A DNA stretch of 64,000 nucleotides. Origin: Nonlabens sp. YIK11 (GTDB lineage: Bacteria; Bacteroidota; Bacteroidia; Flavobacteriales; Flavobacteriaceae). The stretch is from NCBI RefSeq assembly GCF_001413925.1, contig NZ_LBMJ01000001.1, positions 1,900,001 through 1,964,000 of the forward strand, given 5' to 3'. Below are positions 1,586-20,533 of this stretch, in pieces. How positions within the stretch are numbered: position 1 is the first letter of the stretch; every line of letters begins with the position of its first letter. Both the position numbers and the translations under genes were made by a program. Under the pieces are notes generated by a model. That model ran no database searches. It saw only the letters and a list, made by a program, of their open reading frames with translations, and was not told where the DNA came from.

Positions 1586-1676
1586 ACCATTCGTCGACAC
1601 TTAACCGTCATCTACCGACAGTAAAATACTGTTCAACTAACTATTTCCAGAAAACTGACCTTTAACATCATATTTG
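1586..1676 (+). promoter_or_regulatory. LytTR-type boxes and -7 box before the nitric oxide signalling operon
   Basis: ACCATTCGTCGACACTTA (1586-1603) is followed by a weaker copy with core TCATCTAC at 1608-1615. A CATATTTG -7 box lies at 1669-1676, only 4 nt before the ATG at 1680, so the transcript would be nearly leaderless. The same box and -7 pair recurs at 11395-11463 and 12899-12969, which suggests that this operon is regulated by its own LytTR product. Confidence 0.6.
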
Positions 1677-1679
1677 TAG

Positions 1680-2111
1680 ATGCTTAAACCCTCAACCTTG
1701 AACAACAAACTCAGAGTATTACTCATAGAAGACGACACGATTGAGGTCATGAAACTCAAGAGAGCGATCGCAAAACTTGAAATGCCTCATGAAATCGTAG
1801 AAGCAAAAAACGGTGAAGAAGCTCTTGATATACTTAGAAACCGTGATTCGTTACCAGACTTGATCCTCTTGGATTTGAACATGCCTCGTATCAATGGCTT
1901 GGAATTTCTCAAGATTCTAAAAAATGACGAAGTGATGCGCTTTTTACCAGTGGTAATTCTGACTACTTCCAGCAATAGAAAAGACATGCTGGAATGTTAT
2001 AAAGAAGGTGTTGCTGGTTATATCTTGAAGCCGCTCAAGTACGATGATTATGTGGAAAAGATAAGCACCACATTAAATTATTGGAGTACCAACGAATTAA
2101 TTAAAGGATAA
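1680..2111 (+). CDS. Single-domain response regulator (Rcp1-type receiver)
   Basis: The 143-residue protein is a receiver domain and nothing else. It has the acidic pocket (EDD at 17-19), the phospho-acceptor Asp65 in LLDLNMP, the switch Thr95/Thr96 and the conserved Lys117 in ILKPLK. Receivers of this kind carry phosphate between a kinase and an HPt protein or act by direct binding. It is the first gene of a seven-gene operon. Its stop overlaps the start of the H-NOX gene (TAATG), so the two are probably translationally coupled. The likely partners are the two histidine kinases and the HPt protein downstream. Confidence 0.85.
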   Translation: MLKPSTLNNKLRVLLIEDDTIEVMKLKRAIAKLEMPHEIVEAKNGEEALDILRNRDSLPDLILLDLNMPRINGLEFLKILKNDEVMRFLPVVILTTSSNRKDMLECYKEGVAGYILKPLKYDDYVEKISTTLNYWSTNELIKG

Positions 2112-2653
2112 TGAAGGGAATCGTTTTTACAGAATTTCTGGATTTGGTAGAGAATAAGTTTGGCCTTGAGATGGTGGACACCATCGTTTCTAATGCAGAT
2201 TTGCCTTCTAATGGTATTTATACCTCAATTGGGACCTATAGTTTTTCTGAAATGCTCAGTTTATTGGTCAACCTCAGTCAGGAAACGGGTATAGCCATCG
2301 ATGAACTATTGCTGGTATATGGGGAACATTTCTTCACGGTAGTCGAGAATAGTTATTCCTCTTTTTTAAGGGAGTTTACTGATCCTATAGAAATGCTTGC
2401 TTCTATAGAAAATCATATTCATGTAGAAGTCAGAAAGATATATCCAGACGCAGAGCTTCCTACTTTCAATGTTCTGGAGAAAACCGAGAATACACTGATC
2501 ATGATTTATAAGTCCAGTCGCTCCATGCACTGTTTTGGGTTGGGACTTATGAACAAGACTTTTGAGTATTTCAATGCTGAAGCCACTATATTAGTTGAGA
2601 AAATAAAGGAAGATGGGACTGAGGTAAAATTCAGTATTCAGAGAAATGGCTGA
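2111..2653 (+). CDS. H-NOX (HNOB) heme nitric oxide-binding sensor
   Basis: This 180-residue protein matches the H-NOX fold over its whole length, starting with the typical MKGIVF. The proximal heme ligand is His104 (the HVEVRKIYPDAELP region, aligned with the HDHLATIYPG segment of soluble guanylate cyclase), and the YxSxR pocket that binds the heme propionates is present as YKSSR (Tyr133, Ser135, Arg137). Bacterial stand-alone H-NOX proteins bind NO and control an adjacent kinase or cyclic-di-GMP enzyme, often affecting biofilm formation. Its stop overlaps the start of the histidine kinase gene by 8 nt, so that kinase is the expected partner. Confidence 0.9.
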   Translation: MKGIVFTEFLDLVENKFGLEMVDTIVSNADLPSNGIYTSIGTYSFSEMLSLLVNLSQETGIAIDELLLVYGEHFFTVVENSYSSFLREFTDPIEMLASIENHIHVEVRKIYPDAELPTFNVLEKTENTLIMIYKSSRSMHCFGLGLMNKTFEYFNAEATILVEKIKEDGTEVKFSIQRNG

Positions 2654-4622
2654 CGATAAAATTAAGATTTACGAACGTGCTCTAGCTCGCGAGAAGGCGG
2701 CCAGGAAGCAAGCGGAACAAATCCTAGAACAAAAATCTAGAGAGCTTTTTGAAAAATCTGAAGAGCTACGTATTTCCAATTTCAAACTAGAAAACCTCTA
2801 CAAGCAAACCTCGTCAGAACTACAAGGGGTTTTTGAAAACATAGTGGATGCGTATGTCGTCATGGACATGAACAGCAAGGTTATAAAAATGAACCATGCT
2901 GCAGAAAAGCTACTGGGATACAAATTAGAAGAAGATATCGATCTTTTCTCGCTGGTTCATGATGATGAAAAGGAGAAAACAGCCGAAGCGTTTAAATATC
3001 TATTTCACAACTCATCCATCACAGATTTTCGGATTAAAATCGTTGTAAAAGATGGGTCTGCCAAAATGGTCCACATCAATGCGAGCTTAATTTTTGACAG
3101 CGATAAAAAGCCGGTAGCAGCGCAAGGTATCGTGCGAGACATCACGAAAGAAAAGGCTGCAGAGCATCAATTGAGAGAATCCCAAAACCGACTGGCGACC
3201 TTAATCCAAAATCTTGAAAGTGGCATTTTGCTGGAAGATGAAAATAGGGATATCGTCATCACCAACAATAGATTTTGCGAGTTTTTCAATATTCCTGCAA
3301 CACCCGAACAGTTGGTTGGTCAAAATTGCGCTAACGCTGCAGAGCAGAGCAAAAGTCTGTTTGCAGATCCTGATAGCTTTGTAGAACGCATCAATACACT
3401 GGTAAATGACAAGGAGCTTGCCCTTGCGGATGAACTTCAATTGATCGATGGGCGCATTCTGGAACGAGACTTTATTCCAGTTTATGAAAATGAAATCTAT
3501 AAAGGACACCTTTGGGCCTATAGGGATGTGACCCTGCGACGACGCTACCGCAAAAACATTGAGGTAGAGCGCGAAAAATACAGCAGTATCATTGCTAACA
3601 TGAATCTAGGTTTGATAGAAGTGAATCTTGATGATGAGATCTTGATGGTCAACCAGCGACTAGAAGCTATGTCAGGATATACAGAGCAAGAGCTGCTGGG
3701 TAAAAAGGGAAATGAGATGTTACTTGTCAAAGAAGACAGGGAAGTACTGCAAAAAGAAAATCAGAAGAGACTCAAAGGCAGTTCTAATTCTTATGAAGTA
3801 AGGATACGTAGAAAGGATGGCGAGATTCGTCATTGGCTTATAAGTGGTGCACCACAGTACAACATCAACGGTAAGGTAACTGGCTCTATTGGAATACATC
3901 TGGATATAACGGAACTCAAAAACCTCGAAATCCAAAAGGAAAATCTTCTCAAAAAATTAGAGAAGAGCAACGACGAGCTCCAGGAATATGCACACGTCGT
4001 TTCCCACGACTTAAAATCACCTTTGCGCAGTATCAATGCTTTGGTGAGTTGGATTAGAGAAGACAATCTGGACAAGTGGACTGAAGATACCAGGCATCAC
4101 CTTAATATGATTGACGCGACATTAGAAAAAATGGAGCAACTTATCTCTGATGTATTGGAATATTCCAGTGTAGGATCAGATAGCAGCATCAAGGAATCTG
4201 TTGATTTGAATGAGGTCTTGACCGACATTGAAATGTTGCTGCACATTCCTGACCACATCACTCTGGATATTAAAAAACCATTACCAACCCTAAAAGCAGA
4301 TAGAGTCAAAATCCAACAGCTTTTTCAGAACTTGATCAGCAATGCCATACGTTATTGCGATAAAGATCCAGGATATGTCAAAGTGGATTTTGAAGAGACA
4401 CCCAAACATTTCAAGTTTACTGTAGAAGATAATGGTATAGGAATCAGCCCAGAGTATCATGAAAAAATCTTCAAAATCTTCCAGACGCTTAACAAGCGCA
4501 AAGATTCTACTGGAATAGGACTTTCCATCGTTAAAAAGATCGTTGATCTATATAACGGTGATATATGGGTAGAAAGCGAACTGGAAAAGGGCACTACGTT
4601 TCACTTCACTTTATCCAAATAA
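2646..4622 (+). CDS. Cytoplasmic PAS-domain sensor histidine kinase, likely H-NOX partner
   Basis: The 658-residue protein has no membrane segments. An N-terminal coiled coil (about 1-60) is followed by three PAS domains (about 60-170, 185-300 and 310-425), a HisKA dimerisation domain with the H-box HVVSHDLKSPLRS (phospho-accepting His454) and a HATPase_c domain with the N box (QLFQNLISNAIR), DNGIGI and TGIGLSI motifs. By analogy with HnoK-type kinases, its autophosphorylation is probably modulated by the H-NOX protein encoded just upstream with an 8-nt overlap. Its transmitter is a close paralogue of the second kinase in this operon, so both may feed the same receivers. There is no receiver domain, so it is not a hybrid kinase. 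Confidence 0.88.
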   Translation: MADDKIKIYERALAREKAARKQAEQILEQKSRELFEKSEELRISNFKLENLYKQTSSELQGVFENIVDAYVVMDMNSKVIKMNHAAEKLLGYKLEEDIDLFSLVHDDEKEKTAEAFKYLFHNSSITDFRIKIVVKDGSAKMVHINASLIFDSDKKPVAAQGIVRDITKEKAAEHQLRESQNRLATLIQNLESGILLEDENRDIVITNNRFCEFFNIPATPEQLVGQNCANAAEQSKSLFADPDSFVERINTLVNDKELALADELQLIDGRILERDFIPVYENEIYKGHLWAYRDVTLRRRYRKNIEVEREKYSSIIANMNLGLIEVNLDDEILMVNQRLEAMSGYTEQELLGKKGNEMLLVKEDREVLQKENQKRLKGSSNSYEVRIRRKDGEIRHWLISGAPQYNINGKVTGSIGIHLDITELKNLEIQKENLLKKLEKSNDELQEYAHVVSHDLKSPLRSINALVSWIREDNLDKWTEDTRHHLNMIDATLEKMEQLISDVLEYSSVGSDSSIKESVDLNEVLTDIEMLLHIPDHITLDIKKPLPTLKADRVKIQQLFQNLISNAIRYCDKDPGYVKVDFEETPKHFKFTVEDNGIGISPEYHEKIFKIFQTLNKRKDSTGIGLSIVKKIVDLYNGDIWVESELEKGTTFHFTLSK

Positions 4623-4625
4623 CCT

Positions 4626-5753
4626 ATGAAAACTGTTCAGCTACAACGTGGGAAGAATGAGGACTGGATTTACATAGGAGACCGTCAGCAATTGACCGTT
4701 CCTATGGTGCTCATCTTTGGGAATAGGTTTTTACTGGAAGATCCTGGGTTGTTGAGTGAGGTTAGAGCGTTATTTCCAGATGGCGAGTTAGTATTTGCTT
4801 CTTCCAGTGGTGATCTTGTGGCAGGTGCCGTCAACGACGAGCATATCACCATTACCGCGATCGAGTTTGAAAAGACTCAGTTTCAAATTAAAAGAATCAA
4901 CATCAAGGATTTTGATGACTCAGCAGCTGCAGGTGATGCGGTGGTGTCTCTTTTAAATACCACAGGGTTGCGTCACGTATTTGTCATTTCTGAAGGTAGT
5001 AGCGTCAACGGCTCTGCCTTGACTAAAGCCATGCAATCCAGATTGCCCAGCACGTTGATAACTGGCGGACTTTGCGCAGATGGTGATAGGTTTGAGCGTA
5101 CGCTGGCTTCCTACAATGAATCGCCTAAGGAAGGCGAGATCATAGTCATTGGTTTTTATGGAGAAAGTTTTGAAGCTTCCTTTTCTATCTATGGCGGCTG
5201 GAAACCATTTGGTCCAGAAAGAGTGATTACTAGATCAAAAGGAAATGTACTGTATGAAATCGACGGCAAACCAGCCTTGGATCTGTATAAAAAATACTTA
5301 GGCGATAAAGCCAAGGACCTTCCAGGATCTGCACTGATTTATCCTTTGAATGTACAATTGGAAGGTAACAAGCAATCCTTTGTACGCACCATTCTCAATA
5401 TTGATGAGGAAAATAACGCCATGATTCTGGCAGGTGATGTTCCAGAAAAATCCAAGGTCCAACTTATGATGAGTACCATGGATGATATCGCTGCGGCGTC
5501 AGAGACTGCCGCCATTAGAGCCATGGAAGGAAGGCGACAGCCACCACAACTAGCCATATTGATAAGCTGTATAGGCCGCAAATTGGTTTTGGATCAGCGA
5601 GTGGAAGAAGAAGTAGAAGAAGTCATGGATGTCATAGGAAGTAATGTGGTCATCACAGGAATGTACTCCTATGGCGAGATTGCTCCGTTTTATGGTGAGC
5701 GAGAATGCAGGCTGCACAATCAGACCATGACCATTACCTTAATAAGCGAGTAG
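4626..5753 (+). CDS. FIST-domain sensor protein, NosP-like
   Basis: This 375-residue protein is built of FIST_N and FIST_C domains, with typical segments such as LITGGLCADGDRF near residue 140 and ILISCIGRKLVLDQR and MYSYGEIAPF in the C-terminal third. FIST proteins next to histidine kinases include NosP, a heme-dependent nitric oxide sensor in Pseudomonas, Vibrio and Legionella. The following kinase has the N-terminal signature of NosP-associated kinases and starts directly at the stop codon of this gene (TAGATG), which supports the assignment. Heme binding cannot be read from sequence. A small-molecule sensor of another ligand remains possible. Confidence 0.75.
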   Translation: MKTVQLQRGKNEDWIYIGDRQQLTVPMVLIFGNRFLLEDPGLLSEVRALFPDGELVFASSSGDLVAGAVNDEHITITAIEFEKTQFQIKRINIKDFDDSAAAGDAVVSLLNTTGLRHVFVISEGSSVNGSALTKAMQSRLPSTLITGGLCADGDRFERTLASYNESPKEGEIIVIGFYGESFEASFSIYGGWKPFGPERVITRSKGNVLYEIDGKPALDLYKKYLGDKAKDLPGSALIYPLNVQLEGNKQSFVRTILNIDEENNAMILAGDVPEKSKVQLMMSTMDDIAAASETAAIRAMEGRRQPPQLAILISCIGRKLVLDQRVEEEVEEVMDVIGSNVVITGMYSYGEIAPFYGERECRLHNQTMTITLISE

Positions 5754-6806
5754 ATGAATCCATTGCTTAAGAGACAGATCAGGAAACTACTGCCCGAAGA
5801 CCTTCGGGATAGGGAAGACCTGCAGGCATTTCTTAAGGCAGTTGGTGACTCCTATGACAATCTGGAAGATCAATTCAAAATGACTCAGCGCGCCATGACC
5901 ATAAGCTCTGACGAACTTTTTGAGGCCAACCAGTCGTTACGAGAAGAATCAGAACAGCAACAAAAGCTACTGGAACGCTTACAAGCCGTCATCAACAGCG
6001 TGAACCCGCAAAAGGGTGACCTTGAAGATGTGGAAAGTATTCAAGACATTGAACAAGGTAGCCTGGCAGATTATATAAGCAATCAGGCAGAGCAGCTCAT
6101 CGCCGTCAATAAAAATCAGGAGCGATTATTAAAAGAACTCGCCTTGCAAAATCAAGAATTGAATGACTATGCACACATTGTTTCCCACGATTTAAAATCT
6201 CCTTTGCGCAGTATCGAGGCTCTGGTCAGTTGGTTGAAAGAAGACTATGAAAATGAATTGGGAACCGCTGGAAAGCAGCAAATCGATTTGATCGTGACCC
6301 ATTTAGAGAAGATGGATGCCTTGATTCAAGGGATTTTGAGCTATTCTTCCATTGATAAGGAAGACCGCAAGGAACACGCTATTGACCTCAATAAGCTGGT
6401 GGCCGAAACCGTTGAGCTGCTTCACGTGCCCAGTTCTATCAAGGTAAAAATCCATACGTTGCCCACCATTACCGCAGATCGATTCAAGATACAGCAACTC
6501 TTCCAGAATTTACTGGGAAATGCCGTGGACAATATGGATAAAGTGAACGGTCGCATCGATGTTATTGCCAGGAAGCTGGATCAAGGCATTCAGTTTGAGA
6601 TCAAGGATAATGGCAAGGGAATTCACAGGGATTATTTTGGTAAGATATTTCAGGTGTTTCAAAAGCTGGAAGACGATTCGCTCAGTACTGGTATTGGGCT
6701 TTCTATCGTCAAAAAAATCGTCAACTTTTATGATGGTACCATCTGGCTGGACAGCGAGGTGGACAAGGGCACCACATTCTATTTCACTTTACCTAAAACG
6801 CTTTAA
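5754..6806 (+). CDS. Cytoplasmic histidine kinase, NahK-like partner of the FIST protein
   Basis: The 350-residue kinase begins with a helical region that includes the motif TISSDELFEANQSLREE, typical of kinases encoded next to FIST proteins. A coiled coil leads to HisKA (HIVSHDLKSPLRS, phospho-His145) and HATPase_c (QLFQNLLGNAV, DNGKGI, STGIGLSI). It has no PAS, membrane or receiver domain. The catalytic part is closely similar to that of the first kinase in the operon, which points to duplication followed by pairing with different sensors. It abuts both neighbours (TAGATG before, TAAATG after). Confidence 0.85.
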   Translation: MNPLLKRQIRKLLPEDLRDREDLQAFLKAVGDSYDNLEDQFKMTQRAMTISSDELFEANQSLREESEQQQKLLERLQAVINSVNPQKGDLEDVESIQDIEQGSLADYISNQAEQLIAVNKNQERLLKELALQNQELNDYAHIVSHDLKSPLRSIEALVSWLKEDYENELGTAGKQQIDLIVTHLEKMDALIQGILSYSSIDKEDRKEHAIDLNKLVAETVELLHVPSSIKVKIHTLPTITADRFKIQQLFQNLLGNAVDNMDKVNGRIDVIARKLDQGIQFEIKDNGKGIHRDYFGKIFQVFQKLEDDSLSTGIGLSIVKKIVNFYDGTIWLDSEVDKGTTFYFTLPKTL

Positions 6807-7124
6807 ATGGAGCAACCCAATCTCGATTATATCAACGAACTTTCTGGCGGCGATGCGGCCTTTGAAGACAAACTGATTCTTGTTATCAAGACAGAATGGC
6901 CTGAAGAGGTCCAGGAATACGAGATGAATATGGAGAATTCCGCTTTCGCGAAAGCGGCACTCAACGTACACAAAATCAAACATAAATTAGGCATTGTGGG
7001 ATTGGTTGAAGGCTATGAACTAGCGGTGCAATATGAGCTCGACCTCAAAGCTGGGAACACGTCCCAAAAAGAGTCGTTCCAAACCGTTCTGGACCGCGTC
7101 ACCCATTTCATAAATCAATTGTAA
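6807..7124 (+). CDS. Histidine phosphotransfer (HPt) protein
   Basis: The 105-residue helical protein carries the HPt signature VHKIKHKLGIVGL, in which the first His (about 54) is the expected phosphorylation site. HPt proteins relay phosphate from one receiver to another. Here it could link the Rcp1-type receiver, or the kinases, to the LytTR regulator that follows after 34 nt. A 16-bp palindrome is inserted just before the HPt motif and read as SAFAKAA. If the insertion lengthens a loop it has been tolerated, because the motif and frame are intact. Confidence 0.8.
   Translation: MEQPNLDYINELSGGDAAFEDKLILVIKTEWPEEVQEYEMNMENSAFAKAALNVHKIKHKLGIVGLVEGYELAVQYELDLKAGNTSQKESFQTVLDRVTHFINQL
6941..6956. 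repeat. 16-bp palindrome inside the HPt gene
   Basis: Perfect copy, read in frame as SAFAKAA immediately upstream of the phospho-His motif. Confidence 0.95.
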
Positions 7125-7158
7125 TATGTAAATTGCTGTCCATCCTAAAACCTGAGAT

Positions 7159-7875
7159 TTGAAGTGTATCATTGTAGATGACGAGGCAGCAGCTAGAACG
7201 ATTGTAGGCCATTTGTGCAGCCAGACCGATAATTTGAAGGTGCTGGAAGAGTTTCCCAACGCGATGCAGGCCATCAAGTTCTTGAACAAGAATGAAGTAG
7301 ATCTCATCTTTTTGGATATTCACATGCCAGACTTTACGGGTTTTGACTTTATCGATACGCTTAAAAACCCGCCGAAGATCATCTTGACTACATCTGATAA
7401 GAACTTTGCCATAGAGGCTTTTAGTTATGAATGTATTGTCGATTATCTGGTAAAACCCATCACACTGCCCAGATTTCAAAAAGCAGTGCTCAAGGCAGAG
7501 AATTTTGTAACACCTGTGGAAGATCTTCCTGTGGCTACACAAAAGACCAAAGTAGATCCAGCAGAAAAGGAAATGTATGTCAACATCGATCGCCGTTTGA
7601 TCAAAATCGAATTTGACAAGGTCCAACTCATAGAGGCAAAAGGTGATTACATTCTAATTAAAACCGAGGATAAAAACTACACGGTACATTCCACACTCAA
7701 AAAAATCCAGGAAAAACTTCCTGACAGTAGCTTTTTAAAAGTTCACCGATCCTACATCATCAACTTTAGAAAAATCATTGATATTGAGGATAACAGCGTA
7801 CTCATCGCAAAAAATGTGGTGCCCATAAGCAGGTCCAACAGACCTGAGTTGATGAAACGATTGAATTTGCTGTAA
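7159..7875 (+). CDS. LytTR-family response regulator, output of the phosphorelay
   Basis: The 238-residue protein starts at TTG. It has an N-terminal receiver (phospho-Asp53 in LFLDIHMP-like FLDIHMP, conserved Lys in VKPIT) and a C-terminal LytTR DNA-binding domain (about 138-238, with the typical FLKVHRSYIIN segment). LytTR regulators such as AlgR bind direct repeats of a short motif spaced about two helical turns. An AlgR-like motif (ACCATTCRTC) is repeated upstream of this operon and of several polysaccharide units in the window, so this gene is the best candidate for their regulator. It is the last gene of the operon that starts at 1680. Confidence 0.9.
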   Translation: MKCIIVDDEAAARTIVGHLCSQTDNLKVLEEFPNAMQAIKFLNKNEVDLIFLDIHMPDFTGFDFIDTLKNPPKIILTTSDKNFAIEAFSYECIVDYLVKPITLPRFQKAVLKAENFVTPVEDLPVATQKTKVDPAEKEMYVNIDRRLIKIEFDKVQLIEAKGDYILIKTEDKNYTVHSTLKKIQEKLPDSSFLKVHRSYIINFRKIIDIEDNSVLIAKNVVPISRSNRPELMKRLNLL

Positions 7876-7878
7876 AGT

Positions 7879-7966
7879 ATTCATCGAAGTGAATGGACCA
7901 TTTGTCTACACTTAAAACGCGCTAGTCGTTTTTGAAAATATAGCGCGATAGTTCGCCCTAGATTTG
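7879..7966 (+). promoter_or_regulatory. LytTR-type direct repeat (21-bp spacing) and -7 box downstream of the LytTR gene
   Basis: Core TCATCGAA at 7881-7888 and the strong box ACCATTTGTCTACACTTA at 7898-7915 (core from 7902) are 21 bp apart. TAGATTTG, a perfect -7 box, starts at 7959, 57 nt from the core of the strong box. This would drive a short transcript that ends at the terminator at 8114-8146. Confidence 0.6.
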
Positions 7967-7971
7967 GCTTG

Positions 7972-8146
7972 TATAACCCATAAGCCATGAGAAGATCATT
8001 TTCATTTTATGCTATGATGGTCACACTTTTTACAAGCGATCAAAAATATCATTTCTCCAATACATTTACTACCCACTGAATACCTATTACTATTTTTGAG
8101 GTTGGTTAGGAGGAAAGCCACCGTGGGAAACTGCGGTGGTTTTTTT
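7972..8146 (+). ncRNA. Candidate short LytTR-controlled transcript (sRNA or 30-aa peptide mRNA)
   Basis: A perfect -7 box at 7959-7966 with a LytTR-type box upstream, and an intrinsic terminator ending at 8146, define a unit of about 175 nt. Inside it is one small frame, ATG at 7987 to stop at 8077-8079, encoding 30 residues (MRRSFSFYAMMVTLFTSDQK...). A second possible -7 box (TATTTTTG, 8091-8098) would give an even shorter RNA of about 40 nt. No known RNA family was recognised, and expression is inferred only from the signals. Confidence 0.35.
8114..8146 (+). terminator. Intrinsic terminator
   Basis: Stem CCACCG/CGGTGG (8118-8123 and 8134-8139) with a GGGAAAC-type loop and a run of seven T at 8140-8146. 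Confidence 0.8.
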
Positions 8147-8684
8147 AATCTGATTGATGAACCCAGTCATATTCTCCATTTCGATATGTTACAATTCCAC
8201 CACCTGCTTCTTCCTTACCAACAAATAAACTGGGTTGGGTCAATTGCACCGTTCTCTCTCCAATAAGTTCTCCATCTTGCACTAAAACCTCAACAGTTAC
8301 TTGGTCATATACTACACACCATAAATTGGCCCAACCTAAGTCATTTGGAAATCTTGAGGTCTGTTCCATGTTACAGCCTATTGAGATTAAATCTTCATCG
8401 TTTTCTTCAATTATTAATCTCCGACAATCGTTATTGTCAAAGTAAATCTTTTCTAAAATCCCATTACCATTCAGGTCAGCATATATGGTCTCTGATAAGC
8501 AATATTCTTCATATTTTTCAAACTGAAAATACTCTGGATGAGAACAATCTGAACTGTTGATTTGCTCTAATTCCGACTCCTTTTTTGACGTATTATATTC
8601 AAGTGTATATGTTTTAATTTCTTCATTTGAGTCGTTTTTACAACTAATGAATGAAAAGAAAATGAGAATGAGAATTGAGGACAT
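8145..8684 (-). CDS. Hypothetical lipoprotein
   Basis: I do not recognise a family. From the chosen ATG at 8684 the protein is 179 residues, with a hydrophobic stretch and lipobox MSSILILIFFSFISC (Cys15), then an acidic, cysteine-containing domain with no motif I can name. A longer version starts at the ATG at 8765, which overlaps the stop of the upstream small gene (TAATG). That would add 27 residues before the signal sequence. The lipoprotein signal favours the shorter form, while the TAATG coupling favours the longer. The two small genes probably form one unit. The stop codon lies in the T-run of the terminator from the opposite strand. Confidence 0.5.
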   Translation of the reverse strand: MSSILILIFFSFISCKNDSNEEIKTYTLEYNTSKKESELEQINSSDCSHPEYFQFEKYEEYCLSETIYADLNGNGILEKIYFDNNDCRRLIIEENDEDLISIGCNMEQTSRFPNDLGWANLWCVVYDQVTVEVLVQDGELIGERTVQLTQPSLFVGKEEAGGGIVTYRNGEYDWVHQSD

Positions 8685-8764
8685 TCTTGTTGAATTTACC
8701 AGTAAGACTCTTGCCTGTTTGTTGGCTGTAAACATGCTTTCCAAGGCTCTATTAATTTGTCGCA

Positions 8765-8983: not shown

Positions 8984-9058
8984 GATACAAACTACAGTTG
9001 GGTCAATGTCTATCTCCTAGAGAATTACCTCTCTTGATTATCTTAAAAAATCAAAACA

Positions 9059-9094
9059 CAAAAAACCCACTAAAAATCAAAGGTCTTTAGCGGG
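9059..9094 (-). terminator. Intrinsic terminator of the TPR/beta-barrel gene
   Basis: Stem CCCACTAAA (9066-9074) with TTTAGCGGG (9086-9094), one mismatch, followed on the minus strand by a T-rich run. Confidence 0.75.
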
Positions 9095-9120
9095 CAGGAA
9101 CGTCTTAGGGAACGAATTTC

Positions 9121-11166
9121 TTAGAATTGGAATAAAGGGCCATCTAGGATTTGCCATCTCAACTTGACGCCTAACTCCATGAATTCAAAACCAGCTGCGG
9201 TAGCACTGGCCGTGTTGCTGTACTTTCCATAAGCACCAGCTTGAAAGCGCTCGCTTATCGCATAGCTTAAATTACCTTCTAGACGGTACAAGGTGGTGGC
9301 TTTTTGGTCCTCGATAAATTGGTAACCGCCAGCGGCATTGGCGCTGTAGGTCCAGTTACCCGTACTACCGCTCAAATCTGCAAAAAGCTCGACCGCTTGG
9401 TATTTGGATGGGCTAAAGTAGAGTGTCGGCACCTGATCCTTATAACTCAGGTACTGATAGTTCACGCCACCTTTTAATGCCGGAGATTTGGTAAAGGTGT
9501 AATACAAGGATGTGAATAATAGGTTTCTCGAGTTGCCATCCGTTTGTTGGGTGTGCATCAAACCCGTGTACCATCCCAGGTTGATATTGGTGCCCATGTT
9601 GTAATTAAGTGAGTAGTTGTTCATAAAGATCTTCTCGTCAATCAAGTCTGCATTAAAGTTTTGAAGCTCGCGACTGTAGCCTACTTCAAGATATTGCAGT
9701 GCCCATGGTCTGGACTTTACAAAGACAGACCCATTGACATCTGTATAGTCATTCTGGTCGGCGTTGGCCTTTACAAAACCTAGCGTACTTTCTACCCAAG
9801 TATTGTTGTGAACACGATAGTGCGCACCAACAGAGGCATTGGTATTGTACGCCATGGAACCGTTACCGGTATTTTCGGTAGTTCTGTACGAGTAATTAAA
9901 AACAGATCTGAATCGGTCAGAAAATGGAATTACTGCATTTATTCCTGCGGCATACGCCTCATTATTACCATTATCACTGGTATAGGATCCTACGGTGTTT
10001 ACCACAGGAGCCAGTCCGTTTTTTAACGCTGCCAATAAGGCACGCGCATCTGGCTGATTGGGATAAAAGTCCAGCGTTTTCAAGGCGTAATCTCTTGCAA
10101 GATTCAGATTTCCTTGCGCTCTGTAGGCATTGGCGATTCCTAGGTTTCCGTCAAATGAGGTGCTGTCTTTTTCTAGAATGGCTCTGTAGTAGGAGATGCT
10201 TTTGGCAAAGGTTCCCGTGTACATGCCCAAGGTTGCTTTCAAGGCATCCAGTCTGTTGCTCGCGCCGCAAGCTGCTTCAGTCGTGGCGATGACCTCTCTG
10301 GCTTCTGGGTATTTGTTGTTCCAGATCAAGGCCTGAATATAACGTTCGTTAGCTGCTAGCAAGGTCTCTTTATGTTGCACGGAATCTTGTTGAAATTTCG
10401 CTTTCGCGAAAGCGGAACCTTCAACAGCATATTGCAAGGCGAGTTTAACTTTTTTGAGTAGGTGAGCGACCAGCGATTGACCGATCAAGAGGCTCAAACT
10501 ATCTGCCATGCCGCCGTAAGTCGTGGCTGCCTGGTCATAATTCTTTTGGGCGATGTAGGCATTGGCCAACGCATTCTGGGTGTCTGCATCTTTAGGGAAC
10601 AGTTTCAGGTTACTTTTAAGAGTGACGATGGCATCATCCACTTGTTCGTTAGTGATTTGCTGGGACGCCTTGCCCAGTTGCATGTACTTTTTAGAGATGG
10701 CAGCGTTTTGATTTTCTGGTTGTAGATCCAGCGCGTTGTTGACGTAGATTAAGGCATTGTCGTATTTCTTAAGATTGGATAAGGTGTTTGCATAACCCAA
10801 TATGGCTGGGAAACTCGTGGAATCTTGCTGTACCAGATCTTCATAAACGCTTTCAGCTTCTGTGAAATCTTTGTTCCATAATAGGGACTCGGCACAATTA
10901 AGCGCTACTTCAAAATCGGTTGGGTAATCCTTTTGTAGCTCGATAAACAAGCTTTTTGCTTCTTTGGTTTTACCACTTAAACCCAAGGCTCTTCCATAAC
11001 AAAGACGTGCGGTCTTATTGTCTGGATATTCCTGCAGCACTTCTTCAAAAAAGTCCCGAGCTTGGACATAGTTGCCTTGTTCCAATAATTGGAAACCGGT
11101 GTTCATGTCCTGGGAAAAACCAAAGCTTGCGATGAAGACGATCACTAAAAAACTAACTACTCTCAT
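9121..11166 (-). CDS. TPR and outer-membrane beta-barrel protein, likely exopolysaccharide exporter
   Basis: The chosen ATG at 11166 gives a 681-residue protein with a clean signal peptide (MRVVSFLVIVFIASFGFS). The first 390 or so residues are tandem TPR units. The remainder is a YaiO-like beta-barrel of alternating short strands that ends in an aromatic-rich strand (...LDGPLFQF). This TPR-then-barrel design is that of BcsC, PgaA and PelB, which pass polysaccharide through the outer membrane, and the neighbouring flippase and glycosyltransferases fit that role. An upstream in-frame ATG (11253) would add 29 residues, cysteine- and arginine-rich and without signal-peptide character, so it was rejected. 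The gene is divergent from the flippase and has a terminator right after it. Confidence 0.75.
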   Translation of the reverse strand: MRVVSFLVIVFIASFGFSQDMNTGFQLLEQGNYVQARDFFEEVLQEYPDNKTARLCYGRALGLSGKTKEAKSLFIELQKDYPTDFEVALNCAESLLWNKDFTEAESVYEDLVQQDSTSFPAILGYANTLSNLKKYDNALIYVNNALDLQPENQNAAISKKYMQLGKASQQITNEQVDDAIVTLKSNLKLFPKDADTQNALANAYIAQKNYDQAATTYGGMADSLSLLIGQSLVAHLLKKVKLALQYAVEGSAFAKAKFQQDSVQHKETLLAANERYIQALIWNNKYPEAREVIATTEAACGASNRLDALKATLGMYTGTFAKSISYYRAILEKDSTSFDGNLGIANAYRAQGNLNLARDYALKTLDFYPNQPDARALLAALKNGLAPVVNTVGSYTSDNGNNEAYAAGINAVIPFSDRFRSVFNYSYRTTENTGNGSMAYNTNASVGAHYRVHNNTWVESTLGFVKANADQNDYTDVNGSVFVKSRPWALQYLEVGYSRELQNFNADLIDEKIFMNNYSLNYNMGTNINLGWYTGLMHTQQTDGNSRNLLFTSLYYTFTKSPALKGGVNYQYLSYKDQVPTLYFSPSKYQAVELFADLSGSTGNWTYSANAAGGYQFIEDQKATTLYRLEGNLSYAISERFQAGAYGKYSNTASATAAGFEFMELGVKLRWQILDGPLFQF
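10399..10414. repeat. 16-bp palindrome inside the TPR/beta-barrel gene
   Basis: Perfect copy, read as SAFAKAK between two TPR helices. Confidence 0.95.
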
Positions 11167-11211
11167 GTTCCTTATTTTACAGTAGCAAGGTAGAACCAGT
11201 TTGCAGCGCAT

Positions 11212-11247
11212 CAATCGGCAGCAAAATACCACTCGTCTACACTTATG
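11212..11247. promoter_or_regulatory. LytTR-type box in the exporter/flippase divergent region
   Basis: Strong box ACCACTCGTCTACACTTA (11229-11246) has a half-site AATCGGC 21 bp upstream, exactly as at 12883-12911. No -7 box follows at the usual 57-58 nt on the plus strand. It may act on the minus-strand exporter gene (start 11166; a weak TACCTTGC box reads at 11185-11192) or assist the promoter at 11456. Confidence 0.45.
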
Positions 11248-11394
11248 GTCCATTCAAGGAACTTGAGAACTGCCCATAGACAGCCAGCTGATTCATAGGG
11301 ATAAAAATGATGCCACTACTGGCCTGCAAAACTTGGATTTGAAACCACTAACAACCCAAAATCGTTCGTCACAAGTTTAAAGAGCGATCTGCGC

Positions 11395-11463
11395 CATTCA
11401 TCTACAGCAAATTCCTGCTCATCGAAATCTGATCCTGCCAGAAAGGATGCGTCCACATATTTG
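11395..11463 (+). promoter_or_regulatory. LytTR-type direct repeat and -7 box for the flippase unit
   Basis: CCATTCATCTACAG (core 11398-11405) and TCATCGAA (11419-11426) are 21 bp apart. CATATTTG, identical to the -7 box at 1669, lies at 11456-11463, 58 nt after the start of the first core. Confidence 0.6.
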
Positions 11464-11488: not shown

Positions 11489-11623
11489 ATGCAAATGACC
11501 ATCATACACTCTGCAACACACCTGAAAGTCGTACACCAGACTAAAAAGCCTACTAAAGGCTGCCGCCTACAAGTGGTTTATAGAAAAGAAGAAGCACCAC
11601 TTCTTTTTTTAACCATTGCCTAA
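11489..11623 (+). CDS. Possible 44-aa leader peptide before the flippase
   Basis: ATG at 11489 opens a 44-codon frame (MQMTIIHSATHLKVVHQ...) that ends 12 nt before the flippase start, within the transcript expected from the -7 box at 11456. Its last third runs through a hairpin AAGAAG/CTTCTT followed by seven T (about 11589-11611). The region could therefore act as a translated attenuator, or as a small gene co-expressed with the flippase. No homologue was recognised. Confidence 0.35.
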   Translation: MQMTIIHSATHLKVVHQTKKPTKGCRLQVVYRKEEAPLLFLTIA

Positions 11624-11635: not shown

Positions 11636-12916
11636 ATGACTGCCATCATCCTCAAACTCAAAAGAACATTAACACCACAGCAAATCTTCATGGCGAGTGC
11701 CTTTGTCGTGAATGCTGGGAATTATGCCTATAACCTGTTGCTGGGAAGATTCTTGGGACCACGCGCCTTTGCAGATGCCGTGATTCTCATCACTTTACTG
11801 CTGGTGCTGTCCTTTGTGGCCATGACCTTCCAGCTTACCGTCGCAAAGTATATGGTAGAACTGCACAGCAGGAACCAGAACAGCTTTATCCAGCAGGCCT
11901 ACAAGTATGCGCTTACGTTCGGACTGGTGCTGGGTGCCGCGGTTGTGATTTTCGCACCAGAATTGCAAAGCCTTTTTCAAACCGAATCCAGTTTGATGTT
12001 TACCATTTTTGGTGCGGCCGTGCCGCTCTATTTTATTATGAGCGTGAATCGTGGGAAGCTGCAGGGCGATCAATCCTTTGTGGAATTGTCGATTACCTAT
12101 CAGTTTGAGATGTTCTGGCGACTGGGATTGACGTTTATACTTCTTTCCATTCTTCCTGTTAGTCCAGCGATTATCGTCTCCATCGCCATAGGCGTTTCAT
12201 TTATTGCAGGTTTGTTCCCTTTCAAGAAGGTGCGTAGCGCATCCTTTTTAAAAGTAGATCTGTCTGCAGCAGAGAAGAAAAGCATTCTTAGGTTCTTCAT
12301 GCTCACAGCCTTTTATGAGCTCACGCAAATTGTCTGTAACAACAGCGATATCTTGATGGTGAAACATTATTTTGATTCCTATGATGCAGGTTTGTACTCT
12401 TCACTTGCGTTGATTGGTCGCGTGGTGTATTTTGTTACCTGGATGTTTGTGATGCTCCTGCTGCCAGCGGTCATCGATTTGCGCAAACGCGGTGATGATC
12501 CCATTCCTGTTTTGAAAAAGTATGTAGGTTACATCACGGCCTTGTCTGCCATGATCGTGAGCTTCACGTTTATCGTGCCTGAATTTGCGGTGACCCTATT
12601 ATTTGGCGAGCAGTATTTGAGTATTGCGCCATTGCTGGGCTGGTATGCACTTGCGACTTCCTTTTTTGCCATTTCCAACATCTTTGCCTACTATTTCCTT
12701 TCCCTAGATAAATACAAGCCGGTGATCATTGCGGGTGTTTTTGGACTGGTACAGGTCTATGCCATCAGCCTATTTCACGACTCCTTATTTCAAGTGACCA
12801 TTGCTCAAGTGCTCGTCATGTCTGGTTTGCTGGTAATGCAGTTGGGCTATTTTATGATGCACCAAAAGTATGCGAAAAGTGCTAATCGGCTAGAATCTAC
12901 CATTCGTCGACACTAG
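11636..12916 (+). CDS. Oligosaccharide/polysaccharide flippase (Wzx-like, MATE fold)
   Basis: The 426-residue protein consists of about twelve hydrophobic segments and is of the size of Wzx flippases. Features of the polysaccharide-synthesis transporter family are the N-terminal QQIFMASAFVVNAGNYAYNLLLGRFLGP and the charged loop between helices 6 and 7. Such proteins move lipid-linked saccharide units to the periplasmic face. It lies between the outer-membrane exporter (divergent) and the STAS and GT4 genes. A LytTR-type box and -7 box about 170 nt upstream suggest regulated transcription. Confidence 0.8.
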   Translation: MTAIILKLKRTLTPQQIFMASAFVVNAGNYAYNLLLGRFLGPRAFADAVILITLLLVLSFVAMTFQLTVAKYMVELHSRNQNSFIQQAYKYALTFGLVLGAAVVIFAPELQSLFQTESSLMFTIFGAAVPLYFIMSVNRGKLQGDQSFVELSITYQFEMFWRLGLTFILLSILPVSPAIIVSIAIGVSFIAGLFPFKKVRSASFLKVDLSAAEKKSILRFFMLTAFYELTQIVCNNSDILMVKHYFDSYDAGLYSSLALIGRVVYFVTWMFVMLLLPAVIDLRKRGDDPIPVLKKYVGYITALSAMIVSFTFIVPEFAVTLLFGEQYLSIAPLLGWYALATSFFAISNIFAYYFLSLDKYKPVIIAGVFGLVQVYAISLFHDSLFQVTIAQVLVMSGLLVMQLGYFMMHQKYAKSANRLESTIRRH

Positions 12917-12969
12917 TTGTTCGTCGGTCGTTTTTAGTTCGCTTTCGCGAAAGCGTCACCCCATATTTG
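12883..12969 (+). promoter_or_regulatory. LytTR-type boxes and -7 box before the STAS/GT4 unit
   Basis: Strong box ACCATTCGTCGACACTAG (12899-12916, core 12904) has half-site AATCGGC 21 bp upstream, inside the end of the flippase gene, and a weaker TCGTCGGT at 12921. CATATTTG at 12962-12969 follows the core by 58 nt. Confidence 0.6.
12940..12955. repeat. 16-bp palindrome, intergenic
   Basis: Perfect copy between the LytTR-type boxes and the -7 box of the STAS/GT4 unit, so it lies inside a promoter region. Confidence 0.95.
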
Positions 12970-13020: not shown

Positions 13021-13317
13021 ATGGCACTAGAAATCAAAAACATCGAAGGAGTCATCTGCATCAAAGGTGAAGTAACCACCAACAGATTGACCGAGCTGAA
13101 AAACTATTTTACAGCGGCTCTAAAATTTGAAAACAGACTTGTGGTGAATGTATGCCAAGTAGGTCACGGACAGGCTTCACTGCTGTTTCTTTTGCAGCAG
13201 ATTAAGGACAGCCTTTCCATTGATAGATCGTTGATCTTTTTTGGATCACCAGACCGTAACGTCAAGCAATTGTTAAAAGAAATAAACAGCCCAGCCAACT
13301 ATTATCAAGCCGCGTAA
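13021..13317 (+). CDS. Small STAS-domain-like protein
   Basis: The ATG at 13021 gives 98 residues whose pattern of strands and helices resembles a STAS domain (anti-sigma factor antagonist fold): MALEIKNIEGVICIKGEV, then a central LVVNVCQVGHGQASLLFLLQQI. The usual phosphorylatable Ser/Thr of classical antagonists is not obvious; Ser62 or Ser67 are candidates. An in-frame upstream ATG (12967) is closer to the -7 box than expected and was rejected. It lies 37 nt before the GT4 gene and is probably co-transcribed, so it may control polysaccharide synthesis by protein-protein contact. Confidence 0.6.
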   Translation: MALEIKNIEGVICIKGEVTTNRLTELKNYFTAALKFENRLVVNVCQVGHGQASLLFLLQQIKDSLSIDRSLIFFGSPDRNVKQLLKEINSPANYYQAA

Positions 13318-13354
13318 ACACCATCCAATACCATAACCTCAAAATTACCGAATT

Positions 13355-14557
13355 ATGAAACTCGCTATAGTTACCGCTTATCCACCTAGTAAAGTTACCT
13401 TAAATGAATATGCGTACCATTTGGTAAAGCATTTCCGCCAGCAAGAAGAAGTCACCGAACTCGTGTTGCTTACTGACACCACTCCAGAAGCTGCAGATCT
13501 TGCTTTTGAAGAAGATGGATGCAAGATTACTGTCAAGCAATGCTGGAAATTCAACGGTATGTTCAATGTGCTTTCCATCGCCAAGGCAGTCAAAGCCACC
13601 CAACCTGATGCCGTTTTATACAATCTGCAATTCATGAAATTTGGAGATAAAAAAGTACCAGCCGCATTAGGCTTGTTTTCTCCATGGGTAACTAAACTGA
13701 TGAAAGTAAAAACCATCGTGCTGCTTCACAATATTATGGAAGCCGTAGACTTGAGCAGTGCAGGTTTTACCGAAAACAAATGGAAGTCCAAAATCTTTAA
13801 TTTTATAGGCGAAACGCTCACTAGAGTAGTGCTGCAAGCAGATCAAGTAGCTGTAACGATACAAAAGTATGTGGACATACTGGAAGAGAAATACGCGGCA
13901 AACAATTGCATCTTGATACCTCATGGTACATTTGAAATCCCAGCAGAACCAGATTACAGTTTGCCAGAAGGTCCTATGAAGATCATGACTTTTGGAAAAT
14001 TTGGTACCTACAAAAAAGTAGAAGTGATGATTGAAGCAGTAGAAAAAGTACGTCAATCTACGGGCCGTGATCTAGAAATCGTGATTGCTGGTACTGATAA
14101 TCCTAATGTTCCTGGATATCTAGAAAGCATGAAGAAGAAATACAGCCACGTACCACAATTGACCTTTACTGGTTATGTAGAGGAAGAAGAAGTTCCCGTG
14201 ATTTTTAGAGAAAGTGCCATGGTGGTGTTTCCCTATACATCTACCACAGGAAGTTCTGGAGTATTGCATCAGGCAGGAAGTTATGGCAAGGCAGTTGTGA
14301 TGCCAGATTTAGGTGACCTAAGCACGCTCATGGAAGATGAAGGCTATGTGGCAGAATTGTTTTTACCATCCAATGTGGACTCTCTAGCCTTATCCATCAA
14401 GAGATTTGTACTCGATACAGAATATAGAAATCACGTTGCCAAGGTGAATTATGAAGCAGCCACCGCAATGCCTATGTCGGTCATTACTAAAATGTATATC
14501 GATGCTTTTAAAAGTCAACCTGCAACAGTAGATGCTGATTTCCCAGTAGCTGCTTAA
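13355..14557 (+). CDS. GT4-family glycosyltransferase
   Basis: This 400-residue protein has the two-Rossmann GT-B fold of family 4. The N-terminal half begins MKLAIVTAYPPSKV, and the C-terminal half has the nucleotide-sugar-binding region (GKFGTYKKVEVMIEA, IVIAGTD, LTFTGYV and the FPYTSTTGSSGVLHQAGSYGK loop). The second Glu of the classical EX7E motif is not conserved there. Such enzymes transfer sugars from nucleotide donors to lipid-linked intermediates in the cytoplasm. It follows the STAS gene in the same unit and is convergent with the glycosidase gene, only 2 nt away. Confidence 0.8.
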   Translation: MKLAIVTAYPPSKVTLNEYAYHLVKHFRQQEEVTELVLLTDTTPEAADLAFEEDGCKITVKQCWKFNGMFNVLSIAKAVKATQPDAVLYNLQFMKFGDKKVPAALGLFSPWVTKLMKVKTIVLLHNIMEAVDLSSAGFTENKWKSKIFNFIGETLTRVVLQADQVAVTIQKYVDILEEKYAANNCILIPHGTFEIPAEPDYSLPEGPMKIMTFGKFGTYKKVEVMIEAVEKVRQSTGRDLEIVIAGTDNPNVPGYLESMKKKYSHVPQLTFTGYVEEEEVPVIFRESAMVVFPYTSTTGSSGVLHQAGSYGKAVVMPDLGDLSTLMEDEGYVAELFLPSNVDSLALSIKRFVLDTEYRNHVAKVNYEAATAMPMSVITKMYIDAFKSQPATVDADFPVAA

Positions 14558-14559
14558 GA

Positions 14560-20200: not shown

Positions 20201-20385
20201 GTGAAGCCCGTATACCAACTGTAGTTCCATGGCTCGAACCAACTGGTCGCATAGTGGTTTGCAAAAAACAGGTGAATAAGCGCATCATAAGTCTTCTCTA
20301 GGGTAAAGAACATGGATGTGCCATGAAAAACGAGGCCTACTAGAATGGCTACAATCAGATATTTATTGGTAGTCGATGCTTTCAT
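17293..20385 (-). CDS. Large polytopic membrane protein, GT-C glycosyltransferase-like
   Basis: The 1030-residue protein starts with about ten membrane segments (residues 8-400), has another at about 560-580 and one near 625-650, and ends in a soluble beta-rich domain of about 350 residues. The first periplasmic loop carries acidic and aromatic residues (EKTYDALIHLFFANHY) in the position where GT-C enzymes keep their catalytic Asp, and the PxxHQA and GYPPL segments resemble the PTPS-related membrane family. A role as polymerase or transferase using lipid-phosphate sugars fits the Alg5-like GT2 encoded divergently. It is the first gene of the minus-strand operon. The palindrome at 19717 falls in a cytoplasmic loop (FAFAKAL). 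Confidence 0.6.
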   Translation of the reverse strand: MKASTTNKYLIVAILVGLVFHGTSMFFTLEKTYDALIHLFFANHYATSWFEPWNYSWYTGFTVMGYPPLVHQAIGALSFIGGLKFGMFTVALIAIVLFITGVYRFTQVLIPDKKVAGYAALLAVFSSSFVETLHIFGQLPSIIGISILMHAMPEIYLWIKTARYKHLFKALALLAVTVTSHHVTPIFGMAFFIFPLIGMAVMDATREKVNSNKEVTFFAFAKALWQHLKRIILFGACSLVLIVGCILPYWINTKNNPITQVPIPHGSRDNFLEVTSSGLVFFVIPWGLLLILLPYFFYRYYSKRLLFFGFSFTLLAVLGTGGTTPIPLKILGENAFNILTLDRFTLWASIMALPAFGEFCYRFVEGDYKEYLQDKWGSLAHRLSGGLLASLFIFLAIFTITLGKFRPSQPEEINMLPIVNFLNEDDHDMWRYLPLGFGDQMAWLSAQTKATTVDGDYHSARRLPELTSRAVERLENSKYRGIEGIGSLQQFLTVPEKYHLKYVFSNDKFYDPLLYFTGWHRLSLLENGIMVWEKAGIAPLPSILPKDNVPLFQKILWGTIPFLTIIVALLLHLRSMWTRSSKSGPEELPAYMHFATVYRRLPKLLYGISLIWFVIVTVCVAIGMYIFYLKNSTQISAENVVLAYYDALDFKEFERAHSYLDPKADKSISQFMLEISVSDGLLSSYAKLDEIDIDITAKTDSTATGFVKANWVTPLKVIDTRDTLDLEKIKSKWYIKPKPIDPDVPPEQLVIQSNTQFYNHGKRKITSEQTYHEDVLKQPVVEVLMAKMVVVDGEYAIIGEIQNVDNVPADISITGTLYDRDNNPLAKFNAKDVIKHKLLPKETTPYRINFEDIAWASNQAQKPASYDPTTFTKIDLSDTPVNFEVQVVANVATTDLYQAVATSQVEQNENFINGFLFNPSIEAATIPQLLISYYNQNQELVWVESIYIDESVRQQRKRKFQIDISKIALPRLLSTSLQNVSVNGLPNQSISDKVVPNRNEIGLTNRLIPVKNMPFRYISITPNSYIGNPE
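19717..19732. repeat. 16-bp palindrome inside the GT-C-like gene
   Basis: Perfect copy, read as FAFAKAL. Confidence 0.95.
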
Positions 20386-20420
20386 TTTGATTCACTCGTG
20401 AGGTATGAGTTTCGTCAATC

Positions 20421-20428
20421 CGAAGATA
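20421..20428 (-). promoter_or_regulatory. -7 box (TATCTTCG) for the GT-C/glycosidase operon
   Basis: On the minus strand TATCTTCG matches the TAnnTTCG variant of the Bacteroidota -7 box, 35 nt before the start codon. The same octamer precedes the SusR-like gene at 22778. Confidence 0.45.
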
Positions 20429-20465
20429 AAGGTTTTAAAATCTGCTCTAACTATCGATAAGCGGT

Positions 20466-20533
20466 TTCCATCTACACAAATGCTCCATTGACCGAAAACC
20501 AACAGCTCACAGCCCTTACCAGCTCTAAGTTTG
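20466..20533 (+). promoter_or_regulatory. LytTR-type box and -7 box for the GT2/manA unit
   Basis: Box TTCCATCTACACAAA with core at 20468-20475. A perfect -7 box TAAGTTTG at 20526-20533 follows the core by 58 nt. The GT2 ATG is at 20557. Confidence 0.55.

Follow-up and report, generated by a model that had tools for sequence, protein, structure and literature searches.

Across the 64 kb stretch of Nonlabens sp. YIK11 analysed here (the window; the whole genome comprises 3.26 Mb), a short DNA box recurs at promoters of an operon for putative nitric oxide (NO) sensors and of genes for polysaccharide matrix. Judged from sequence, these boxes are very probably the operators of the LytTR response regulator encoded at 7159..7875 (+ strand; PF00072 and PF04397, both over cut-off), and would join the NO-sensor operon and the matrix genes into one regulon via a phosphorelay. 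Within this proposal we infer that the regulator binds the boxes and activates transcription, as well as the direction in which NO acts.

Proposed operator boxes in the window

The box was defined as the 18-mer ACCATTCRTCKACACTTA, with matches counted by mismatches and the reversed pattern used as the control. Read in one register, boxes lie at 1586, 1607, 7897, 11228, 11393, 12899 and 20463, all on the + strand. Every site named in the original prediction is present, within 1–3 nt of where it had been placed; the core that had been put at 1608 does mark a box, but it belongs to a second, weaker one at 1607, 21 bp below 1586. Relative to the 18-mer, the box at 1586 has 0 mismatches, those at 7897 and 11228 have 1 each, 12899 has 2 and 11393 has 4, compared with an expectation for both strands of 64 kb of 0.0 at ≤2 mismatches and 0.1 at 3, based on ten first-order Markov sequences of the same composition.

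A matrix of 62 columns was built from 97 boxes at 57 loci of other genera, with the loci of the own genus excluded. Its top seven matches in the window are 1586 (33.2 bits), 11393 (33.1), 11228 (32.5), 12899 (31.3), 7897 (24.4), 1607 (20.7) and 20463 (16.9); the eighth reaches 5.7 bits, and the best match in 20 Markov sequences 6.7. The strongest box, ACCATTCGTCGACACTTA at 1586..1603, is the distal member of a tandem operator of the NO-sensor operon, the promoter-proximal member of which is 1607..1624. The box at 7897..7914 follows the regulator gene, 11228..11245 lies near the start of a divergent TPR/BcsC-like gene, 11393..11410 belongs to the flippase promoter, and 12899..12916 overlaps the 3′ end of the flippase gene. 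The last, 20463..20480, is a weak site detected by the cross-genus matrix at the promoter of a glycosyltransferase family 2 (GT2) gene and a mannose-6-phosphate isomerase gene; directly before the orthologous GT2 gene in genome G316 lies a profile match with E 0.0057.

Confinement within the genome

At ≤2 mismatches the whole genome contains 4 sites, all in the window, on one strand and within 11.3 kb, compared with 2 for the reversed pattern; at ≤3 mismatches it contains 10 matches versus 14. Thus, the box count alone is not decisive in the own genome, and clustering, strand, promoter spacing and conservation are. A gapped pattern, i.e., the core plus a −7 box at a fixed distance, matches genome-wide only at 11396 and 12902, and its reversed control nowhere.

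The genome-wide motif scan was run as a cross-genus profile, which is sequence-only, covers operator and −7 box, and derives from 56 sites of other genera (MAFFT alignment A2, in which the rows L115 and L148 are badly placed and L166, one of 57 references, is omitted). Its E-values are only approximate, and the scan scored 150 of 1209 first-look candidates. The six best matches are 1586 (3.1e-7), 11393 (1.2e-5), 11228 (1.2e-5), 7897 (2.1e-5), 12899 (3.6e-4) and 20463 (E 0.035), with 1607 inside the 1586 match; three further matches follow, each with E 0.19. Nothing else in the genome outranks these six, as the original prediction would lead one to expect. Chance clustering of the boxes was rejected on this confinement together with the strand bias and the spacing described below.

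Promoter spacing and repeat architecture

A −7 box of the form YAnnTTTG stands at 62–63 nt from five of the six promoter-proximal window boxes. These are CATATTTG at 1669..1676 (NO-sensor operon, 62 nt from box 1607), TAGATTTG at 7959..7966 (62 nt from 7897), CATATTTG at 11456..11463 (63 nt from 11393) and again at 12962..12969 (63 nt from 12899), and TAAGTTTG at 20526..20533 (63 nt from 20463), all on the + strand. Two are exact TAnnTTTG, which is given as the Bacteroidetes −7 consensus in the available part of PMC9723704. The five −7 boxes had been claimed at 57–61 nt; the boxes themselves stand, but the spread came from an uneven reference point and disappears in a single register. Given 79 occurrences of YAnnTTTG on the + strand of 64 kb as background, the probability of five out of six at two offsets is ~5e-13 before allowing for the choice of distance, in agreement with the claim that such spacing is hard to get by chance.

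The second half-sites that had been reported 21 bp away retain their 21-bp step, but are rather members of a direct-repeat array at −21, 0 and +21, the outer members being weaker than the centre. In the aligned operators, a strong centre CCATTCGTCTACAC has a weaker copy on each side at a distance of 21 bp (A-14 C-12, A7 C9, A28 C30). Information peaks every 21 columns, i.e., in the direct-repeat pattern of a LytTR-type operator. The 21-bp period is two helical turns, which would place the repeats on one face of the DNA.

The spacing recurs outside the genus, with TTTG at offsets 66–68 in 54 of 121 boxes (background 0.36 per offset) and a second peak at 87–89 (16 boxes) from promoters with two boxes 21 bp apart. 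For matrix matches above 12 bits, TTTG falls at 66–68 in 213 of 349 promoter-proximal operators. A side peak at 45–46 (34), one repeat nearer, is expected because the matrix then sits on the neighbouring repeat.

The Bacteroidetes housekeeping promoter includes a −33 element. No strongly conserved columns were found at offsets 38–60 in the aligned operators, and the lack of a conserved −33 element is read as activator dependence. With the −7 box placed at −12 to −5, its mapped position in Flavobacterium psychrophilum (PMC9723704, available part), the repeat centres would lie near −87, −66 and −45, a position relative to the −7 box that we infer to be activator geometry. That the regulator instead represses these promoters is improbable. 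A precedent exists in CoxC, whose triple-repeat LytTR operator overlaps the −35 box and serves repression (PMC11347149); here, however, the repeats stop short of the −7 box, all lying upstream of it, the −33 element is not conserved, and most LytTR regulators are described in the accessible text of the same source as binding upstream of −35 and activating.

The strand bias was examined in two sets of loci: 107 anchored loci centred on the regulator ortholog (2.09 Mb; 14 of the own genus), and 80 loci named by organism (Dokdonia, Aquimarina, Winogradskyella, Leeuwenhoekiella, Cellulophaga and others), some of them shared with the first set. At ≤2 mismatches the anchored loci contain 158 boxes on the regulator's strand, 1 on the opposite strand and 0 reversed-pattern matches, and at ≤3 mismatches 244, 6 and 2, respectively; at least one box at ≤2 mismatches occurs in 83 of the 107. 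The named loci contain 116 boxes on the + strand, 1 on the − strand and 0 reversed-pattern matches, with at least one box in 62 of 80. A reading of the boxes as chance similarity or as a dispersed repeat, without any role in regulation, is hardly credible. Such an explanation could draw on the hundreds of copies of another repeat in genomes of the own genus and on the two reversed-pattern matches in the own genome, but it is contradicted by the strand bias of 158 to 1, the fixed −7 spacing, the conservation across genera, the absence of reversed-pattern matches at ≤2 mismatches from 2.09 Mb and the result of the genome profile.

Association of the boxes with the regulator

The 7159..7875 protein has the features of a LytTR response regulator, and its residues D7, D8, D53, T78 and K99 are present in 107 of 107 loci. 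When the regulator alignment was compared with solved structures, the 60 matches listed of 181 were all to receiver domains. An ortholog, defined by E ≤ 1e-60, was found in 114 of 299 family genomes; with nine candidates scored in most genomes, a few orthologs may have been missed.

Boxes at ≤2 mismatches number 235 versus 62 reversed-pattern matches in the 114 ortholog genomes, and 74 versus 60 in the 185 others. One or more boxes occur in 92 of the 114 ortholog genomes versus 57 of the 185 others (reversed control 45 and 49), and at least three boxes in 37 versus 2 (reversed control 2 and 1). Within the own genus, 15 of 23 genomes have the ortholog, and operators (E ≤ 0.01) occur in all 15, the own genome included; seven of the eight genomes without it have no operator, the exception being G309 (77% complete) with five. 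Judged by this co-occurrence, box presence follows this particular LytTR regulator, not LytTR regulators in general.

The same data bear on the idea that some other LytTR paralog binds the boxes while the neighbouring regulator is a bystander, which is very unlikely. The own genome does encode eight LytTR domains, and two of the 185 ortholog-free genomes have four or five boxes. However, the ortholog-free genomes as a group are at background despite containing similar regulators, e.g., one of the same build in G303 (residues 2–236, 35% identity, among the matches listed), and the same-genus genomes that lack the ortholog nearly all lack the operator. The paralog was thus rejected on the co-occurrence of ortholog and box.

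Some observations concern the regulator itself. In L166 (G024), L181 (G131) and L189 (G087), a second LytTR regulator gene lies 0.8–1.2 kb after the start of the first. Two records assigned to Saprospirales, L275 (Portibacter lacus) and L291 (a Saprospiraceae metagenome-assembled genome), encode a regulator 67–69% identical, with a box, and L275 has the whole operon and polysaccharide genes; these systems may reflect either horizontal transfer or a misassigned record.

The NO-sensor operon and the proposed relay

The operon is ordered receiver, H-NOX, PAS kinase, FIST, kinase, Hpt and LytTR, all on the + strand. The single-domain receiver (1680..2111, PF00072, CheY/Spo0F-like) has its phospho-acceptor D65 in 105 of 105 aligned loci; its listed ATG falls on the predicted transcription start, and translation may really begin at the in-frame TTG at 1698. 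The putative H-NOX haem NO-binding sensor (2111..2653, PF07700, 133 bits) shows the HNOB domain, the proximal His and the YxSxR motif of its family, with H104 in 92, Y133 in 93, S135 in 94 and R137 in 88 of 94 aligned loci and Pro117 conserved; H104 is presumably the haem ligand, assigned from the motif spacing. Its nearest solved structures are 6bde and 6bdd, the latter being the H-NOX of Kordia algicida (PMC7356049, available part), and K. algicida (L268) has the operon, with operators scored by the matrix at 31.7, 29.2, 11.3 and 7.1 bits.

The first kinase (2646..4622) contains PAS, HisKA and HATPase_c domains, with no receiver domain found, and its His454 is present in 103 of 104 aligned loci, the remaining one not being covered. 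The FIST protein (4626..5753, PF08495 and PF10442) is, by family, a NosP-like second haem NO sensor; it adjoins the kinase that starts at 5754, as NosP proteins, the FIST family of haem NO sensors, often do (PMC12570481, PMC6769237, in the parts available), so that the operon holds two families of putative haem NO sensor. The second kinase (5754..6806) has HisKA and HATPase_c, with no sensory or receiver domain found; its His145 is present in 104 of 104 best matches, although where the second kinase is absent the best match may be to the first. The Hpt phosphotransfer protein (6807..7124) scores slightly below the PF01627 cut-off (23.0 vs 24.6 bits) and has His55 in 104 of 104 and His59 in 102 of 104 loci. 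By sequence, all the parts of a four-step phosphorelay (kinase, receiver, Hpt and output regulator, with conserved His/Asp) are thereby present.

The phospho-acceptor stretch, SHDLKSPLRSI, is almost the same in both kinases (window 3984–4064 and 6165–6245), and these stretches cross-match the locus L104 with 84–85% DNA identity over 81 bp. This suggests a common phospho-partner or gene conversion.

In the proposed mechanism, the H-NOX and the FIST/NosP-like protein would gate the two receiver-less histidine kinases. Phosphate would then pass from the kinases to the single-domain receiver, to Hpt and to LytTR, in a Spo0-type relay whose order is a prediction. Phosphorylated LytTR would bind the repeats, substituting for the −33 contact, and would activate its own operon as feedback as well as the matrix genes. 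The latter would comprise a flippase, a small STAS-like protein, glycosyltransferases and, among relatives, a protein secreted by the type IX system. If NO acts as it does in published NosP systems, it would inhibit the kinases and matrix expression would fall, although this sign (less matrix) is a guess.

Gene content was surveyed by tblastn on 101 loci with enough upstream sequence, after six truncated loci were dropped; the two kinase queries can cross-match. The receiver is present in 99, Hpt in 98, H-NOX in 90, the PAS kinase in 83, the second kinase in 68 and FIST in 53. These counts bear on the reading that the boxes are operators but that NO is not the physiological signal, the relay integrating several inputs (PAS, other sensors) with H-NOX and FIST optional. 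In its favour, H-NOX was not found in 11 and FIST not in 48 of the operons while receiver and Hpt are near-universal, and the first kinase carries PAS domains. Nevertheless, nine in ten operons retain H-NOX, the putative haem-ligand His is nearly invariant, and NO sensing by FIST proteins that stand next to kinases is established (PMC12570481, available part). On balance, a signal other than NO is unlikely, though far from negligible, and NO sensing by H-NOX and FIST is kept in the proposed mechanism.

Predicted target genes in the window and in relatives

The genes next to the boxes point to polysaccharide export and assembly. Divergent from the flippase, a TPR protein with a BcsC-like C-terminal domain (9121..11166, − strand; BCSC_C E 4e-4, below its cut-off) is a probable exopolysaccharide exporter. 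On the + strand follow the polysaccharide flippase (11636..12916, PF13440), a small protein that is STAS-like by eye with no Pfam match, as the first gene behind box 12899 (13021..13317), and a glycosyltransferase of group 1/GT4 type (13355..14557, PF13692 and PF00534). The promoter with the weak box precedes the GT2 gene (20557..21369, PF00535), after which comes a type I mannose-6-phosphate isomerase gene (21397..22365, PF20511, 57.8 bits). Genes similar in size to the small protein stand behind the TPR–flippase operator in relatives, with STAS matches at L116 (E 0.08) and L133 (E 2.8e-5).

In relatives, the receiver gene is preceded by an operator above 10 bits at 95 of 102 loci, some of which also trained the matrix, versus 0 of 102 control stretches inside the LytTR gene. 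A flippase lies ≤12 kb downstream in 61 and a TPR/BcsC-like gene in 60 of 101 loci; the TPR–flippase spacers contain an operator in 55 of 58, with TTTG at 66–68 in 51. First genes were clustered behind 235 boxes considered, 18 of which have no open reading frame. The largest groups are the receiver-led sensor operon (84 loci), secreted proteins of ~800–900 residues, mostly right after the regulator (40), and the 13355-type glycosyltransferase (30); there are also the flippase (5), a CAP protein (5), small proteins, some STAS-like (9, 4 and 2), large proteins that are Wzc-like by eye (3) and further smaller groups. Two scanned examples of the secreted group have DUF4114 or DUF6923 plus a type IX sorting tail. 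The claim that one regulon joins the NO operon and the polysaccharide genes is thus borne out at the level of predicted sites, a box preceding both across many genera.

Targets may also be unlinked. In G205 the regulator lies at 40 kb, and three boxes stand at 2.03 Mb within a cluster of Wzy type, which encodes a Wzy-type protein, an efflux-type protein of the outer membrane, a receiver and a fusion of receiver and sugar transferase; in G300 the regulator lies at 19.9 kb and two operators at 2.98 Mb. At L143 (7915–9093), a receiver fused to a bacterial sugar transferase is the second gene behind a LytTR box, and it is possible that the same relay controls this enzyme at the protein level.

The site at 7897 has no gene in the window. 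At L104, which is 95% identical on either side, an 808-residue protein with DUF4114 and a type IX tail is encoded below the same promoter; window 7994–8091 (98 bp) replaces 2.4 kb of L104 (8836–11265) containing that gene. The window retains the promoter and, by eye, a terminator-like stem of the lost gene. By this comparison, 7897/7959 is an orphan promoter whose gene has been deleted. The open frame at 7987–8079 was rejected as a small gene, since the comparison with L104 identifies it as a remnant of the deleted one, and the reading of the open frame at 11489–11623 (by eye) as a small gene found no support.

The site at 11228, near the TPR gene start, occupies the same place as a box in six own-genus loci (L104–L108 and L111). 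Most other loci, including six from the own genus, have a −7-bearing operator at the equivalent place, and the window, six own-genus loci and L131 have a second operator 165–198 bp further on, with TTTG at 67. The minus strand from 11161 to 11420 shows no YAnnTTTG that could give 11228 a divergent role. Box 11228 looks like an older site minus its −7 box, or an extra site.

Evidence against the assignment

Several findings weigh against the boxes being operators of one NO-linked regulon. In the window, 20463 is weak (E 0.035) and 11228 has no −7 box at the right distance. The training sites of the matrix were first chosen by the consensus of the original prediction plus TTTG, so that the matrix is independent in genera, not in motif, and seven of its matches above 12 bits lie on the opposite strand. 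No box at ≤2 mismatches occurs in 24 of the 107 anchored and 18 of the 80 named loci, some of them truncated, or in 22 of the 114 ortholog genomes; seven of the 102 receiver-upstream stretches score ≤10 bits. In K. algicida no box is found at ≤2 mismatches, its operators being detected only by the matrix. The difference in box counts between ortholog and ortholog-free genomes (Mann–Whitney P 9e-24) comes from a test that ignores shared descent. Ortholog-free G154 has five boxes and G245 four; both lack an ortholog at E 1e-60, and a diverged regulator is possible there. Finally, the operons in which H-NOX or FIST was not found mean that NO cannot be the signal everywhere.

Other features of the window and the genus

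A palindrome, CGCTTTCGCGAAAGCG, occurs in 12 copies in 64 kb, 11 of them exact (643, 6941, 10399, 12940, 16406, 19717, 37378, 50182, 53044, 55549 and 56687) and one with 1 mismatch (25175), and 0 times in shuffles. Its core GCTTTCGCGAAAGC occurs 752 times in the own genome and 288–857 times in each of 23 genus genomes, with 0 for the reversed control; in 58 genomes of other family genera it occurs at most 17 times, and in 48 of them not at all. CGCTTTCGCGAAAGCG is a genus-specific highly iterated palindrome, which we liken to the cyanobacterial HIP1. A polysaccharide utilisation locus at 25061–37342 encodes a TonB receptor, SusD, SusE, two GH30 and one GH3; the genome profile search gave no operator match in it.

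Comparison with known systems

The Spo0 system consists of a separate kinase, a single-domain receiver, a phosphotransfer protein and a DNA-binding regulator. The same separate parts are present here, in a relay order that is predicted, but with Hpt in place of Spo0B, a LytTR output in place of Spo0A, and sensors of NO families.

RcoM is a PAS–haem protein. The CO-sensing RcoM and CoxC, the latter with an MHYT domain, resemble the present system in that a LytTR domain serves a diatomic-gas sensor and binds three direct repeats, with 12–13 bp between 8-bp repeats, i.e., about one copy per two helical turns (PMC11347149, available part). In contrast, their gas sensor and LytTR form one chain, whereas here the regulator has receiver and LytTR only and the haem sensors are separate; the cores also differ (CATTCGTCTAC against TTCNNGCA), and the targets here are matrix genes.

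The box had been likened to the AlgR site of Pseudomonas aeruginosa. AlgR is likewise a LytTR response regulator over exopolysaccharide, and its core CCGTTCGTC is close to CCATTCGTC (PMC4064291), but the resemblance holds merely as that of a LytTR-type member, the RcoM/CoxC repeats being closer. AlgR sites vary widely in position and orientation and do not need direct repeats, and the available part of that source describes neither H-NOX nor an Hpt relay; in the present system, strand, −7 distance and repeat period are constant, with 158 of 159 boxes on one strand.

In the H-NOX/NosP networks of Vibrio, Shewanella, Pseudomonas and Burkholderia, an NO sensor also stands beside histidine kinases with biofilm as output (PMC6769237, PMC12570481). 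In Vibrio cholerae, NosP acts via the Hpt protein LuxU, and NO-bound NosP inhibits the kinase (PMC12570481, PMC6769237). As far as the accessible text of these sources goes, those networks end in cyclic-di-GMP enzymes or LuxO, whereas here both sensor types, receiver, Hpt and LytTR are in one operon and the sites lie directly at matrix promoters. The parts are thus already known, i.e., H-NOX/NosP networks, AlgR and the triple-repeat operators of RcoM/CoxC; the combined system was not found in the literature listings searched. No paper joining a Bacteroidetes H-NOX to a transcriptional output was found among the titles and abstract openings searched, with subscription journals mostly outside that search.

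Implications

A wider reading can be advanced tentatively, the balance falling slightly against it, namely that this system is a main matrix switch of Flavobacteriaceae. Two haem NO sensors in one operon would feed a Spo0-like relay, and its LytTR regulator would read a triple-repeat promoter code for polysaccharide, its own sensors and a matrix protein secreted by the type IX system, without any cyclic-di-GMP step, while receivers within target polysaccharide operons of relatives would let the relay act on enzymes too. If the operator assignment is true, ~38% of the sampled flavobacterial genomes (114/299) share a readable matrix promoter code, which would predict matrix genes from sequence and flag unlinked target clusters, and NO control of flavobacterial biofilm would become directly testable.

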